NCBI GenBank assembly: GCA_017617435.1
Contig: JAFZWF010000013.1
Location: forward strand, 1 to 33,858
Length of the DNA stretch: 33,858 bases
From: Bacilli bacterium
Lineage (GTDB): Bacteria > Bacillota_I > Bacilli_A > RF39 > UBA660
Reading direction: 5' to 3'
Shown here in pieces: positions 4,437 to 10,165 of this stretch (position 1 is its first letter; each line of letters starts with the position of its first letter). The notes beneath the pieces were generated by a model. It had not been told where the DNA came from. It saw nothing but the letters and a program-made list of their open reading frames with translations, and did not search any database. A program made the position numbers and the translations under genes.

Positions 4437-5606
4437 ATGAAAAATAAATTTATTATTGTTTCCTTTTTAATAATAATTTATATTACTTTTTTCTTTGTCC
4501 CATTTAAGGAATTAATGATAAGATTACATGTTATTAACTATTATCCTTCTGATAACTGGGAAGTTGTAAAAAAAAGTAACGATAAAATATATGATAAAGT
4601 TATGACACTTGAAGCTTTTGTTAAAAATAGATATAACAACTATTTTCCTTTTTATAACAAAATTAATGAGGTTTATTATGGAAGCATTATAAACATAGAT
4701 AAAACTTATTTAAATGATATTTATTTAAAAGATAATATTGATGATGAAAGAATTTTTTATAATAAAAATAATGACTTTTTTTATGTAGTAAATAAATACT
4801 CAGATGATGAACTTAATAAAAGACTTAATGAACAAGTTATATTTTATAATGATATAAAAGAGAAATATCCAGACGTTTGGTTAGGTTTATATATTCCACT
4901 TCGATATGAATCATTTTCTTTTATGAATATTAATAAACTAAATGATTTAGTTAATTTATTTATTAGTAAAATAAATAAAGACATTAAATATGATTTGTTT
5001 GATGTTGATAATATAAGTGACTATTTAAAGTATTACTATAAAACAGATCACCACTATAATTCTTATGGTGCTGAAATAGCTTATAACGATATATTAAAAA
5101 TGCTTGATATAGAAGATAGTTTGGAGTTTAATCATAAAAATGTTTTTACACCATACTATGGTTCAATGGCAAAAAGTGTATTACTAAAAAAACAAAGTGA
5201 TACTTTAACTGCCATTGATTATGATAATAAGTTAAACGTAAATATAACTGATGAAAATTTTAAACCTTTAGAAAAAAGAGACAGAAGTAATCCTTTTTAT
5301 GATTATTATGTTGGTTATTTTAATGGAATGTATGATGAAATTATTTATGATTCAGGAAATAATAGTGGAAGGAATTTACTTTTAATAGGTGATTCTTATT
5401 CATGGCAAATTGATTATTTACTAGCAAATAATTTTGATAAAACTTATGTTGTTAATACTAAATATGGTAAATGGACAACTAATGATTTAGTTTTAAAAGA
5501 TTATATTAAAGAAAATAATATAACGCACATTTTATTTTTAAGGGAAGCGAAAAATTTAATATTTGATGCTGATAACTTTAAATTAGATAAGAAGGTGATT
5601 AGATAA
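4437..5606 (+). CDS. DHHW-family SGNH-like protein, partner of MBOAT acyltransferase
   Basis: A 389-residue protein with an N-terminal signal-anchor (residues ~4-22) and a large extracytoplasmic domain. Near residue 202 it has TDHHYNSYGA, matching the TDHHW/TxxGA motif of the DHHW family (related to AlgJ/AlgX and the O-acetyltransferase partners), with Tyr instead of Trp. Near residue 318 it has LLLIGDSYS, the SGNH-type nucleophile motif (Ser). By family knowledge these proteins take acyl groups passed through an MBOAT protein and move them to an extracellular polymer. The MBOAT gene follows directly, its ATG overlapping this stop by one base (TAATG), so the two are translationally coupled. 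The polymer acylated cannot be told from the sequence. Confidence 0.82.
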   Translation: MKNKFIIVSFLIIIYITFFFVPFKELMIRLHVINYYPSDNWEVVKKSNDKIYDKVMTLEAFVKNRYNNYFPFYNKINEVYYGSIINIDKTYLNDIYLKDNIDDERIFYNKNNDFFYVVNKYSDDELNKRLNEQVIFYNDIKEKYPDVWLGLYIPLRYESFSFMNINKLNDLVNLFISKINKDIKYDLFDVDNISDYLKYYYKTDHHYNSYGAEIAYNDILKMLDIEDSLEFNHKNVFTPYYGSMAKSVLLKKQSDTLTAIDYDNKLNVNITDENFKPLEKRDRSNPFYDYYVGYFNGMYDEIIYDSGNNSGRNLLLIGDSYSWQIDYLLANNFDKTYVVNTKYGKWTTNDLVLKDYIKENNITHILFLREAKNLIFDADNFKLDKKVIR

Positions 5607-6958
5607 TGGTTTTTTCATCTGTAATTTTCTTATTTGCATTTTTACCACTTTTTCTAATTTGCTATTTTGCATCAAAAAGAATTAGAACAAAAAATATATT
5701 TATGTTCTTATTTTCACTATTATTTTATGCATGGGGAGAGCCATACTATATATTCTTAATGTTATTTATGATTATTGTTAATTATTATTTAACGATAGTT
5801 ATGAGTGAAAAAAAGAGTAAGAAAATATTTATTTTCTTAATCGTATTTAATTTACTTTCATTATTTTCGTTTAAATATTTGAATTTCTGCATTGATAATG
5901 TAAATAACATTTTTAACTTAAATGTAAGCAGAGTTAATTTATCTCTTCCAATTGGTATATCTTTTTATACTTTTCAAATACTTTCTTATGTTATTGATGT
6001 ATATAAGGGTAAAGTTGATGTTCAAAGAAAGTTTATTAATCTAGCTTGCTACGTAAGTGCTTTTCCTCAGCTTATTGCAGGACCTATAGTGAGATATATT
6101 GATATTGAAAAAGAAATAAATGATCGCAAGACGACTGCTGATGATTTTGCTGATGGTATTAGAAGGTTTATAATCGGTTTATCTAAGAAAGTATTAATTG
6201 CAAATAATGTTTCTTATATATGCGATAGTATATTTAATATGGGAGCATCAAGTGCTGGTTTTATTGGTATATTAATAGCTACTATTTCATATACACTTCA
6301 AATATATTTTGATTTTTCTGGATATTCTGATATGGCTATTGGTCTTGGAAGAATGTGTGGTTTTCATTATAATGAAAACTTTAAGTATCCGTATATTGCA
6401 AAGACTGTAACTGAATTTTGGCAAAGATGGCATATATCTTTATCATCATTTTTTAAAGATTATGTTTATATTCCTCTTGGTGGTAATAGAAAAGGTGTTA
6501 TTAAACATATTAGAAATATTTTAATTGTTTGGATACTTACAGGCTTATGGCATGGTGATTCATGGAATTTTATTATATGGGGACTTTATTATGCACTCAT
6601 TTTAGTTTTTGAAAAGTATGTACTTAAAAAAGTTAAAATATCATCACATATTTATACAATGATTATTGTAATGATTGGTTGGCTAATTTTTAGACAAACT
6701 AATTTTAGTGAATTAGTTAGTTCATTTAAAGCACTATTTGGTGGTTATGGTTTAGGTAATTTTAAAAGCCTTTATTATCTTGGTATTTTTTCATCGAGAT
6801 ATATACTTTCATTTTTTATCGGAATATTTGCTTCGATCAATCTATTTAAACTTAAGGATGGATATGTAAAAGATATTTTATTAATAATTATTTTCTTATT
6901 ATCAGTCATACTGATAGTTGTAAGTAGTTATAATCCATTTATATATTTTAGATTTTAA
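5606..6958 (+). CDS. MBOAT family O-acyltransferase
   Basis: A 450-residue polytopic membrane protein of the AlgI/DltB/PatA type. It starts with FSSVIFLFAFLPLFLICYF and AWGEPYYIFLM. It contains PLPIGISFYTFQ-like sequence (LPIGISFYTFQILSY), AGPIVRY, FDFSGYSDMAIGLGRM-type sequence, WQRWHISLS near residue 271, and the catalytic-histidine motif GLWHGDSWNFIIWG with His at about residue 316. The family transfers an acyl group from acyl-CoA across the membrane to a polymer-directed partner, here the DHHW protein just upstream. No dltA/dltC or alginate gene is nearby, so exopolysaccharide or wall-polymer O-acetylation is the most likely role. Confidence 0.93.
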   Translation: MVFSSVIFLFAFLPLFLICYFASKRIRTKNIFMFLFSLLFYAWGEPYYIFLMLFMIIVNYYLTIVMSEKKSKKIFIFLIVFNLLSLFSFKYLNFCIDNVNNIFNLNVSRVNLSLPIGISFYTFQILSYVIDVYKGKVDVQRKFINLACYVSAFPQLIAGPIVRYIDIEKEINDRKTTADDFADGIRRFIIGLSKKVLIANNVSYICDSIFNMGASSAGFIGILIATISYTLQIYFDFSGYSDMAIGLGRMCGFHYNENFKYPYIAKTVTEFWQRWHISLSSFFKDYVYIPLGGNRKGVIKHIRNILIVWILTGLWHGDSWNFIIWGLYYALILVFEKYVLKKVKISSHIYTMIIVMIGWLIFRQTNFSELVSSFKALFGGYGLGNFKSLYYLGIFSSRYILSFFIGIFASINLFKLKDGYVKDILLIIIFLLSVILIVVSSYNPFIYFRF

Positions 6959-6990
6959 AAAAAGGAAAAAAAATTGCTTTCCTTTTTTTA
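6957..6990 (+). terminator. Terminator after the MBOAT gene
   Basis: The A-rich arm AAAAAGGAAA pairs with TTTCCTTTTT (around 6978-6988) across a short loop and runs into T-rich sequence. It separates the acylation pair from the peptide-export cassette. Confidence 0.75.
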
Positions 6991-7090: not shown

Positions 7091-9136
7091 TTGAGAAAAA
7101 TCGTTATTGTAAAACAGCATGATATAACTGATTGTGGACCAGCGTGTTTATCATCTATTATTAAATTTTATGACGGCTATGTTCCAATTGAAATGATAAG
7201 GCTTAAATGTATGACAACATCAGATGGAACAAGCGCCTACAATTTAGTTGAAGCTGCTAAATTTTATAATTTTAATGTATCAGCAATTAGGGTAAATAAT
7301 TGTTTAAGTTTAAAAAACTCTGATCTTCCTTGTATTGTTCATTTAAAACTTAAAAATAATTTACATCATTTTGCTTGTTTATATGAGATTACAAAAGATA
7401 ACGTTGTTTTAATGGATCCAGCACAAGGTAAAGTAAAAATGAAGATAAATGAATTTTCATCTATTTTCACGAATGTAGTAATTCTTTTAAAACCTCACTC
7501 AACCTTGGTAAAATACGAGAAGCCTAATTCCATATCAAAGATAATAATTTCTTTTTTTATGGATAATAAAATAATCTCAACAAAACTTTTGATCTATAGT
7601 ATAAGTCTTGTGTTACTTTCACTTATAACAAATTATTTTTTAAAGTGTGGCAGCTTTTTTTCAGGCGGGGATTTTGGCCTAACGATTTTATTTTTACTAA
7701 TGTTTATATATTTTTATATTTACATGGTAAAAAATTATCTTGATTATATAAAAAATAAATTGCTAGCTTACATGAATAAAAATATTAGTGCTGATTTATA
7801 TAATAAATTTTCTCATCAACTATTTATTCTCCCTTTGAATTTTATTAAATCAAAAACTAGTGGTGAAATAATAAGTAGATATCAGGAATTATCTCAGATT
7901 AATCAAATGATACCTGATATTATTATATCTGTTAGTTTAGATTTAATAATGGCACTTATTACACTTATTTTTTCAAGTATAATTTCTATAAAACTTACAA
8001 TTATAAGTATATTTGTAATGATAATCTATTTTATTACTAATCTTGCTTTTAAGAATCCGACATTGCAAAAGATTAATAGAAATATTAATTTATCAAGCAG
8101 TTTTAATACTGACATAATTGATAATGTTAATACTATTATTAGTACAAAATATATAAATAATGAAGAAAACATGGAAAGAAGACTAGAAAAAAGTGCAACT
8201 AACTATTTACTTGATAATATGAATATGGATTTGTATTTAAACAAATGTAATTTTATAAAAAACATTATTTTTGATATTGGAAGATGGTTTATTTTATCTT
8301 ATGGTCTTTATTTATGTTGTATTCAAGAATTAAATATTATTAATTTATTTACATTTGAAATGGTCATTAATTATTTTTTTGATCCAATTAAAGATTTATC
8401 TTCGATGATACCGAAATACTGCTTTATGAAATCATCACTTTATAAGTTAAATGAATTTGCAATTATTAAAGAAGAAAATAATGGAAGATTTCGTTTTAAA
8501 CCAGGTGAGATAAAGGTGTGCAATTTATCATTTTATTATGAAAATGATAATTATATTTTAAAGAATTTAAATTTAAATATAAAAGAAAAGGAAAAGATAC
8601 TTTTCCAAGGAAAGTCAGGATCTGGAAAAAGCACCTTTTGTCAGATTTTAAGTAAGCAACTTGATTATAAAAATGGAGAAATCAAAATTGGTGATATTAA
8701 TATAAATGATATTGATTTAAAAGACTTCAGAAGAAATGTAACCTATATTGGTCAAAAAGATTCGTTATTAGTTGATACAATTTTAAAAAATATTCTATTT
8801 GAAAGGAAAGTTGTAGATGAAAAATTAATGAACGTTTGCAAAATATGTGAGATTGATGAGATTGTGAATAAAAAAATAAATAATTATGAAACAATTATTA
8901 ATGAATCTGCAATGAACATATCTGGTGGTGAAAGACAAAGAATCATACTAGCACGCGGACTAATTAACCCCGGAAAGATTATTATTTTAGATGAAGCTTT
9001 AAGTGAAGTTAACAAAGATATGGAAGAAAGAATTATTAAAAGAATTTTTAAATACTTTAAAGATAAAACAATAATTTATGTTTCACATAAAGAATATAAT
9101 AATATTTTTAATAGAAAAGTAGTGTTTAATTCTTAA
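7091..9136 (+). CDS. Peptidase C39 ABC exporter for double-glycine peptides
   Basis: A 681-residue peptidase-containing ABC transporter. Residues 1-130 are a C39 peptidase domain: QHDITDCGPACLSS supplies Gln9 and the nucleophile Cys15, HHFACLYE supplies His93, and MDPAQG supplies Asp109. A transmembrane domain of about six helices follows (~160-440). The ATPase domain then shows Walker A GKSGSGKS (~507), signature ISGGERQR (~611), Walker B IIILDEA (~630) and an H-loop VSHKE. By family knowledge it cuts after a double glycine and exports the core peptide. The TTG at 7091 is chosen because GGGAGG (7076-7081) is ideally placed and the C39 domain begins there; an in-frame extension to 6974 would start in the preceding terminator. 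The next gene overlaps by one base and two double-glycine peptides follow. Confidence 0.93.
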   Translation: MRKIVIVKQHDITDCGPACLSSIIKFYDGYVPIEMIRLKCMTTSDGTSAYNLVEAAKFYNFNVSAIRVNNCLSLKNSDLPCIVHLKLKNNLHHFACLYEITKDNVVLMDPAQGKVKMKINEFSSIFTNVVILLKPHSTLVKYEKPNSISKIIISFFMDNKIISTKLLIYSISLVLLSLITNYFLKCGSFFSGGDFGLTILFLLMFIYFYIYMVKNYLDYIKNKLLAYMNKNISADLYNKFSHQLFILPLNFIKSKTSGEIISRYQELSQINQMIPDIIISVSLDLIMALITLIFSSIISIKLTIISIFVMIIYFITNLAFKNPTLQKINRNINLSSSFNTDIIDNVNTIISTKYINNEENMERRLEKSATNYLLDNMNMDLYLNKCNFIKNIIFDIGRWFILSYGLYLCCIQELNIINLFTFEMVINYFFDPIKDLSSMIPKYCFMKSSLYKLNEFAIIKEENNGRFRFKPGEIKVCNLSFYYENDNYILKNLNLNIKEKEKILFQGKSGSGKSTFCQILSKQLDYKNGEIKIGDININDIDLKDFRRNVTYIGQKDSLLVDTILKNILFERKVVDEKLMNVCKICEIDEIVNKKINNYETIINESAMNISGGERQRIILARGLINPGKIIILDEALSEVNKDMEERIIKRIFKYFKDKTIIYVSHKEYNNIFNRKVVFNS

Positions 9137-9516
9137 TGATTGATTCATATATAAAGTTAAAAGAATTTAAAGATAAAAATAATAAATTTTTTCTTTTCAT
9201 TTTAATATTAATTTTACTATTTATTATTATGTTTTCAATTTCTAAAATACCAACATATAGAAGCTTTAATTTGATTAAAACTAATGATAAAAATATTATT
9301 GTATGTGAAAAAAATTGTGATGATTTAATTAGTAACAATATATTTATAAGAGGAAAAGATAAAATTAATTATAAAATTCTAAACATCAATGATGACATTT
9401 ATGAAATAAAACTTGAAAGTAATATAAAATTTAATGATTATATATCAGTAGGAGTTAGAAGCAAAAAAATTAGTGCCATAAGTTTTCTTATTAATATTTT
9501 TAAAAGAAGGGAGTAA
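9136..9516 (+). CDS. Small HlyD-like accessory or immunity protein
   Basis: A 126-residue protein with a short basic N-terminus, one transmembrane helix (residues 18-36), and a ~85-residue outer domain made of alternating short strands, ending in a hydrophobic patch and FKRRE. Its ATG overlaps the stop of the C39 exporter (TAATG). The topology (cytoplasmic tail, single helix, beta-barrel-like outer domain, no coiled-coil hairpin) resembles a minimal membrane-fusion protein like those that pair with peptide exporters. It is far shorter than typical HlyD accessory proteins (about 400 residues). Two cysteines (about residues 57 and 61) lie outside the membrane. It could equally be the immunity protein of the cassette; sequence alone does not decide. 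Confidence 0.6.
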   Translation: MIDSYIKLKEFKDKNNKFFLFILILILLFIIMFSISKIPTYRSFNLIKTNDKNIIVCEKNCDDLISNNIFIRGKDKINYKILNINDDIYEIKLESNIKFNDYISVGVRSKKISAISFLINIFKRRE

Positions 9517-9521
9517 TTAAT

Positions 9522-9668
9522 TTGGAAATATTAAAACAAGAAGAATTAAATTGTGTGAAAGGAGGAGGCATTACTTTAAAGGTTATAATGGGATTTATTA
9601 CAGCTGGAACATTTATTGTTGGTTTGATTGACGGATTCTTAAGACCTTTAAAATGCCGTAATTATTAA
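9522..9668 (+). CDS. Double-glycine leader peptide 1 (putative bacteriocin precursor)
   Basis: A 48-residue precursor. The leader MEILKQEELNCVKGG fits the double-glycine rule exactly with Gly15 as -1: Leu at -12, Glu at -8, Leu at -7, Val at -4, Gly at -2 and -1. The predicted 33-residue core is hydrophobic and glycine-rich with G24, G29, G34 and G38 (G34-LID-G38 is a GxxxG motif). It ends FLRPLKC followed by RNY, with one cysteine (Cys45) and net charge about +3. The start is TTG at 9522 with GGGAG (9509-9513) 8 bases upstream, inside the end of the accessory gene; no in-frame ATG is available upstream. It is too short for common gene-calling thresholds and sits directly after a C39 exporter, which predicts how it is processed. 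Confidence 0.85.
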   Translation: MEILKQEELNCVKGGGITLKVIMGFITAGTFIVGLIDGFLRPLKCRNY

Positions 9669-9669
9669 G

Positions 9670-9828
9670 ATGATACAAGAATCTGAACTTAAAAATGTTT
9701 ATGGTGGACTTTTTAATTTTACTACCACATTCTTTAATTCAATATCAAGATATATAACTACTGTTAAAAGTATTGGAGAATCTATTGGAAGTTCAATTAG
9801 AAGACTTTTAAAAAAGAGTTATTGTTAA
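9670..9828 (+). CDS. Double-glycine leader peptide 2 (putative bacteriocin precursor)
   Basis: A 52-residue precursor starting one base after the stop of peptide 1. The leader MIQESELKNVYGG again fits the consensus with Gly13 as -1: Ile at -12, Glu at -8, Leu at -7, Val at -4, GG at -2/-1. The 39-residue core has an aromatic/threonine-rich start (LFNFTTTFFNS). It then carries a four-residue periodic stretch SIGE-SIGS-SIRR (residues 34-45) containing GxxxG (G36-ESI-G40), and a basic end LLKKSYC with a single cysteine as the last residue. Net charge is about +5, and the periodicity suits an amphipathic helix. There is no clear Shine-Dalgarno, so translation is probably coupled to peptide 1. No in-frame start exists upstream before a stop except rare ATT codons. 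Confidence 0.84.
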   Translation: MIQESELKNVYGGLFNFTTTFFNSISRYITTVKSIGESIGSSIRRLLKKSYC

Positions 9829-9834
9829 TTTATA

Positions 9835-9858
9835 ACCTCACAATTTTTATTGTGAGGT
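9835..9858 (+). terminator. Hairpin ending the peptide cassette
   Basis: A perfect 10-base-pair stem ACCTCACAAT (9835-9844) and ATTGTGAGGT (9849-9858) with a 4-base loop. The following tract (ATTTCTATTATA) is only moderately T-rich, so it may be a weak terminator or an mRNA-stabilising 3' hairpin. Confidence 0.65.
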
Positions 9859-9909
9859 ATTTCTATTATATAAATATTGATTTATCCCTTTATTTATCGA
9901 TAAAACTGC

Positions 9910-9938
9910 TTGCACGTTTTAAATTCTAATGTTATAAT
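9910..9938 (+). promoter_or_regulatory. Promoter of rpsU
   Basis: TTGCAC (9910-9915), a 17-base spacer and a perfect TATAAT (9933-9938). The start site would be near 9945, about 26 bases before the rpsU ATG. Confidence 0.85.
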
Positions 9939-9970
9939 ACCTAGTAGTTGAAGTCGAAGGGAGGGAAATC

Positions 9971-10165
9971 ATGACTAAGGTCGTTGTTCAAAATGGAAAT
10001 ATCGATGGTGCTTTAAAGAAATTTAAAGCTAAAGTTGCAAGAAGCGGTGTCCCTTCAGAACTTAAAAAAAGAAAACATTATGAAAAACCAGGGGTAAAAA
10101 GAAGAGAAGCTAAAAAAGAAATGATTAGAAACTCTCGTAAAGCAAATCGTAACAAAGGATATTAA
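9971..10165 (+). CDS. rpsU: 30S ribosomal protein bS21
   Basis: A 64-residue, strongly basic protein with the S21 pattern: TKVVVQNGNIDGALKKFK, RSGVPSELKKRKHYEKP and an Arg/Lys-rich tail. It assembles late into the small subunit near the anti-Shine-Dalgarno. GGAGGG precedes the ATG by about 7 bases. It has its own promoter and terminator, so it is monocistronic although yqfC follows, as in related Bacilli. Confidence 0.97.
   Translation: MTKVVVQNGNIDGALKKFKAKVARSGVPSELKKRKHYEKPGVKRREAKKEMIRNSRKANRNKGY

Follow-up and report, generated by a model that had tools for sequence, protein, structure and literature searches.

What do the two tiny genes that follow a peptidase-containing exporter in an uncultured gut bacterium encode, and what would their products do? 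The locus lies in a stretch of 33,858 nucleotides, hereafter the window, which comprises positions 1 to 33,858 of contig JAFZWF010000013.1 (assembly GCA_017617435.1) from a member of order RF39, family UBA660, a genome-reduced lineage (PMC13155120). An earlier, sequence-only reading had proposed that a C39-peptidase exporter, a small membrane protein, and two unannotated genes of 48 and 52 codons form an export cassette for a new two-component bacteriocin or peptide signal, and had placed it in a spore-forming gut Bacillus relative. The last description holds in part: sporulation genes do lie nearby, but the organism belongs not to Bacillus but to an uncultured family of the class Bacilli, whose genomes measure about 1 Mb. 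None of the RF39/UBA660 literature hits examined describes the cassette.

Architecture of the cassette

Re-reading the sequence returned the same coordinates, frames, and motifs for the four genes, which make up one packed cassette with a terminator at its end. The cassette and its immediate surroundings are as follows.

6956-6990, + strand: A/U-rich hairpin upstream of the cassette, at the end of the MBOAT gene (fold -10.7 kcal/mol, z -3.8)
7091-9136, + strand: C39-peptidase ABC exporter of the PCAT type, 681 aa, TTG start (PF03412 at 7.7e-36, PF00664, PF00005)
9136-9516, + strand: 126-aa accessory protein (ORF2), N-terminal transmembrane helix and small beta-barrel (homologues, AlphaFold2)
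9522-9668, + strand: peptide A precursor, 48 aa; leader 9522-9566, predicted 33-aa core 9567-9665 (alignment of 46 homologues)
9670-9828, + strand: peptide B precursor, 52 aa; leader 9670-9708, predicted 39-aa core 9709-9825 (alignment of 47 homologues)
9835-9858, + strand: intrinsic terminator-like hairpin closing the cassette (fold -14.2 kcal/mol, z -5.9)
9971-10165, + strand: rpsU (S21), the conserved downstream neighbour (less than 1 kb from B in 25 of 41 loci)

The tight packing noticed earlier was borne out, with an exporter/ORF2 overlap of one base, a five-base gap between ORF2 and A, and a single base between A and B. Hairpins were likewise recovered on both sides; a pattern scan made no terminator call for the one at 6956-6990. 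Directly upstream, at 4437-6958, lies a pair of genes for an AlgX-like protein and an MBOAT O-acyltransferase. This pair was considered as a part of the cassette or as its immunity function and was rejected, as it occurs at this place only in the window and in G002 among the scanned loci.

The exporter and its accessory protein

The C39 peptidase assigned to the exporter is well supported (Peptidase_C39, 7.7e-36) and is accompanied by ABC_membrane and ABC_tran matches, so that peptidase, transmembrane domain, and ATPase occupy a single chain, as in PCAT transporters. The TTG start is preceded by GGGAGGG, and the putative catalytic Cys lies in the motif QHDITDCGPAC, with candidate His and Asp partners read from the sequence. 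The nearest solved structures are PCAT1 (4ry2, E 2e-77) and ComA (8hf4, E 7e-72), which share the three-domain chain; the window exporter differs in scoring under the curated cut-off of the TIGR01193 bacteriocin_ABC model (339.8 against 523.85 bits). It is the sole C39 protein found in this 927-kb, 71%-complete metagenome-assembled genome (MAG).

In about two thirds of exporter loci, the gene that immediately follows the exporter encodes a homologue of the accessory protein (36 members). AlphaFold2, run on 32 homologues, predicts a long N-terminal helix and a small beta-barrel (mean pLDDT 90.5). Searches of 32 members against Pfam gave nothing beyond single chance matches, and a search against the PDB gave no match at E<=0.001; membership of the known HlyD/LcnD family was therefore rejected. 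The protein shares with HlyD/LcnD-type accessories its place after the exporter and the order of an N-terminal transmembrane helix followed by a beta-barrel, but it has only 126 aa and no coiled-coil or lipoyl part. It is probably an export accessory, stripped-down in look. Several relatives have no copy beside the exporter, so the cassette can do without it.

Two double-glycine peptides

Both leaders follow the double-glycine rule, as the sequence-only reading had held. Leader A, MEILKQEELNCVKGG, carries Leu at -12, Glu at -8, Leu at -7, and Val at -4 before the GG, and leader B, MIQESELKNVYGG, differs at these positions only in having Ile at -12. The predicted cores are GITLKVIMGFITAGTFIVGLIDGFLRPLKCRNY for A (33 aa), which is hydrophobic (GRAVY 0.91) with a pI of 9.8, and LFNFTTTFFNSISRYITTVKSIGESIGSSIRRLLKKSYC for B (39 aa), which is cationic with a pI of 10.2.

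In each core, a near-invariant GxxxG motif ends the hydrophobic segment (G34xxxG38 in A, G36xxxG40 in B). In the alignment of 46 A homologues, G34 is near-invariant and G38, P42, and C45 are invariant; in that of 47 B homologues, G36 is near-invariant and G40 and C52 are invariant. The motif occurs in 47 of 48 A cores, against 21.6 in shuffled cores, and in 49 of 50 B cores, against 12.7. This control takes no account of common ancestry, and the invariant alignment columns are therefore stronger evidence for the motif.

Every one of these cores contains Cys, and exactly one is present in 43 of 48 A cores and 46 of 50 B cores. This arrangement makes possible an inter-peptide disulfide between the single C-terminal Cys of A and that of B. 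In one relative, G049, the cassette is duplicated in the order A, B, A', B' (L142, oriented 9551-10121), and A' and B' both lack the C-terminal Cys tail; this joint loss, a single case, fits such a bond.

Several relatives carry unusual forms of the pair. In G004 (L140:9416-9685), the RPLKC tail of A is missing and its reading frame continues through the B leader into B, which is either a natural A-B fusion or an assembly error. In G010 (L156:9714-9872) and G024 (L149:9238-9420), A has no ATG, GTG, or TTG at the usual distance from the GG, and an unusual or upstream start is possible. Finally, in G020 an inserted gene for a methyltransferase-like protein of 227 aa separates A from B (L112:8511-9194).

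Conservation across the family

If the two frames were genuine, homologues would be expected beside C39 exporters in related genomes. Exporter loci were taken from every genome of the same family with an exporter match, 55 including the window, and were searched with profiles grown from A and B; the contigs of three stop before the peptides, leaving 52 to be scored. In 50 of these 52, A followed by B sits directly after the exporter or after exporter and accessory. The two exceptions are G019, where the tail of A is lost and no B was found, and G004, described above. In a family-wide draw, A turned up in 137 of 146 genomes, representing 115 of 120 genera, and was mostly single-copy; a class-wide draw gave B in 51 of 54 family genomes. 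Two further genomes, G040 and G042, have diverged exporters that were missed at 1e-40, yet the cassette is present. One scan of genome contigs returned two close loci only, the remainder being distant exporters. The cassette is family-wide and largely syntenic rather than a local novelty, which goes beyond what had been read from the window.

Outside the family, neither the class draw nor the phylum draw, which apparently reached the same class only, yielded a full-length B. A mobile origin was rejected, as A and B gave no tblastn match among 72,556 plasmids.

A separate observation concerns proteins with double-glycine leaders in Mycoplasma-like families, in which TGA is read as Trp (L198:4039-4431, - strand; L199:3911-4198, - strand; L200, about 4531-4650, - strand; L202:4561-4797, + strand). 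Their match to the B model covers its N-terminal 30-40 positions; they adjoin rplU/rpmA and are possible substrates of Mbov_0121-type C39 exporters.

Selection, loss, and inheritance

The second expectation for genuine frames, purifying selection at the codon level, was also confirmed. Between the window and its closest relative, the congener G002, dN/dS (NG86) is about 0.06 for A and 0.22 for B, and across comparisons it ranges from 0.06 to 0.33 for A and from 0.19 to 0.28 for B, ratios that are approximate because dS is near saturation. Third-position changes dominate (22 of 30 for A between the window and G002). In the same comparison, identity is 85% for A, 76% for B, 67% for the exporter, 35% for the accessory protein, and 90% for the housekeeping GTPase Era.

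Joint loss was followed in nine family genomes, namely seven without A in the family draw, together with G001, which had no exporter match, and G031. Six of the nine (G001, G261, G293, G474, G492, and G493) have neither a C39 exporter nor B, and A is absent as well from the five of them that were included in the A search, that is, all except G001. Of the others, G247 has only an unrelated C39 protein of 1073 aa, a contig end truncates the exporter of G444, and exporter, A, and B are all present in G031. Incomplete MAGs may explain part of the observed loss. Since the unit has been lost inside genera that otherwise keep it (G492 in g9, G493 in g14), it is dispensable.

The chromosomal place of the cassette is itself conserved. 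In 25 of the 41 loci whose sequence continues for at least 1 kb past B, rpsU lies within that 1 kb; many loci run on into yqeY, yqfC, yqfD, vanZ, and ybeY, and on the upstream side many carry spoIIIAH and germane-domain genes. Moreover, ranking the genomes by similarity to the window gives much the same order for the exporter as for Era (Spearman 0.76, n=48; 0.71 when the genus is left out). Together, the rpsU synteny and this rank agreement argue for an old and mostly stable place, and the cassette has apparently been inherited vertically beside rpsU and sporulation genes. The cluster rpsU-yqfC-yqfD-ybeY-era is a common one, however, so the synteny with sporulation genes may be incidental.

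Likeness to class IIb bacteriocins

Several lines of comparison connect the pair with the class IIb, or two-peptide, bacteriocins. In the window, as in the 50 family loci, two different leader-bearing precursors lie side by side, and GxxxG is found in both kinds of core. GxxxG or GxxxG-like motifs occur in all characterised class IIb bacteriocins (PMC6382864). Among the 46 A homologues, 42 match TIGR03949 (class IIb, lactobin A/cerein 7B) at E<0.1, with a best E-value of 4e-8, and three of the six scanned singly exceed its curated cut-off (L164, L120, and L151, at 26.7, 24.2, and 23.0 bits). Likewise, 31 of 46 match the lactococcin G-beta model at E<0.1, several along nearly the whole profile; over the two models the best E-value is about 1e-8. 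The similarity of A homologues to LcnG-beta and cerein 7B extends over most of the model length; the resemblance of B homologues to LcnG-alpha is weak and mainly in the leader. The window peptides themselves fall under every curated family cut-off (for A, 14.5 against 21.5 bits for TIGR03949 and 16 against 37 bits for NF038034, lactococcin G-beta).

With lactococcin G/enterocin 1071 and lactobin A/cerein 7B (NF038034, NF038035, TIGR03949), the cassette shares adjacent double-glycine precursors, cationic cores with predicted helices and GxxxG, and a C39 exporter. It differs from lactococcin G and cerein 7B in its new core sequences, in the conserved C-terminal Cys of both peptides, and in being a near-core cassette inherited across a whole family; unlike systems of that type, it has no kinase or regulator that could be seen. 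The two-component bacteriocin proposed earlier thus draws support from the motif in both cores and from model matches that range from weak to significant, and the A/B pair probably belongs to class IIb.

A third gene in relatives

In 20 loci of relatives there is a third gene, C, about 45-62 codons long, which shares 7-26 nt with the 3' end of B. The encoded protein lacks a leader; its N-terminal half is hydrophobic, and an invariant GxxxG precedes a near-invariant Arg. In profile-profile comparison, C aligns to 35 columns of the B core (91.7%, E 8e-7), and the value for A against C is 0.1%. The window and its genus have no gene C, and in the window 140 bases separate B from rpsU.

Known short class IIb immunity proteins have 42-55 aa, can be single-transmembrane, and are encoded beside the peptides, and the mechanism of class IIb immunity was called a mystery in a 2019 paper (both PMC6957408). 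The C protein is like CbnZ (42 aa), EnkIaz (52), BrcI (53), and AbpIM (55) (PMC6957408) in size, hydrophobicity, and place directly after the peptide genes, and unlike them it carries a copy of the C-terminal half of B. A membrane protein that copies the GxxxG half of B suggests immunity by mimicry; no report of such B-copy mimicry in immunity was found in the literature.

Proposed mechanism and alternatives

The reading that we favour, and consider reasonably probable, is that the cassette makes an unmodified two-peptide bacteriocin resembling class IIb. The C39 domain of the exporter would cut both precursors after Gly-Gly, and the exporter would move the 33- and 39-aa cores out, probably aided by the small transmembrane/beta-barrel protein. 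Once outside, core A, which is hydrophobic, and core B, which is cationic and amphipathic, would associate helix to helix via GxxxG, perhaps with a disulfide between the single C-terminal Cys of each to lock them together, and the pair would insert into the membrane of competing relatives and make it leaky. In many relatives, C would display its copy of the GxxxG half of B and occupy A as a membrane-held decoy, protecting the producer.

For a bacteriocin speak the single C39 exporter with A and B alongside and the joint loss in six genomes. Against it, almost the whole family carries the pair, in synteny, and within the genus both peptides diverge less than the exporter (identities above), whereas known bacteriocins are usually patchy and fast-diverging. 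Also against it, nothing found accounts for immunity in the window and its genus, which have no C, and the window A and B score below every family cut-off. What is new here is that the system is inherited family-wide, apparently vertically, that each peptide of the pair has its Cys, and that a third gene mimics B. The combined account, in which a family of genome-reduced gut Bacilli has vertically kept a near-core toxin that acts as a disulfide-linked A-B membrane heterodimer, its producers shielded by a membrane-anchored decoy copied from the GxxxG half of B, is tentative and taken as a whole rather doubtful.

The same near-universal, largely vertical inheritance would suit secreted helpers that do not kill, acting in surface or biofilm control, in attachment to host or neighbours, or in a role linked to sporulation. 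The frequent position of the cassette between spoIIIAH/germane-domain genes and rpsU-yqeY-yqfC-yqfD points the same way, and there is a cyanobacterial precedent in double-glycine peptides that control biofilm in Synechococcus (PMC4997328). The possibly incidental nature of that synteny, the class IIb signatures, and the loss of the whole unit in a few congeners (G492, G493) make this role unlikely in our estimate.

Conservation across the family and strong purifying selection would also fit a peptide signal, with A and B forming a pheromone pair exported as ComC is by ComA and sensed by a receptor encoded elsewhere. The exporter is indeed close to ComA, and several A and B homologues match ComC weakly. 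Nevertheless, no histidine kinase or receptor gene was seen at the window locus, the cores appear to be long GxxxG helices of hydrophobic or cationic character, a pheromone made of two obligately paired peptides would be unusual, and a B-like membrane mimic fits immunity better; we regard signalling as improbable.

Double-glycine leaders and C39 exporters also serve modified peptides, and the methyltransferase-like gene between A and B in one relative (L112) could be read in that light. However, precursors of a lanthipeptide, sactipeptide, or other RiPP are a very remote prospect, given that the window cassette has no modification enzyme, that the cores usually have a single Cys, and that the PF10439 class II and the class IIb models fit best. 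Chance open reading frames, finally, are refuted by the presence of both in 50 of 52 exporter loci and by purifying selection, with the low dN/dS and third-position bias given above.

Significance for the family

Bacteriocin genes are generally seen as accessory, whereas this two-peptide system has the look of a trait that characterises an entire uncultured gut family and that many members, even with genomes of about 1 Mb, have retained in the same position beside rpsU. It provides the family with a predicted weapon or signal, for which synthetic peptides would allow a test that does not need the producer in culture. To the question of how class IIb producers protect themselves, the B-like third protein supplies a specific and testable answer.
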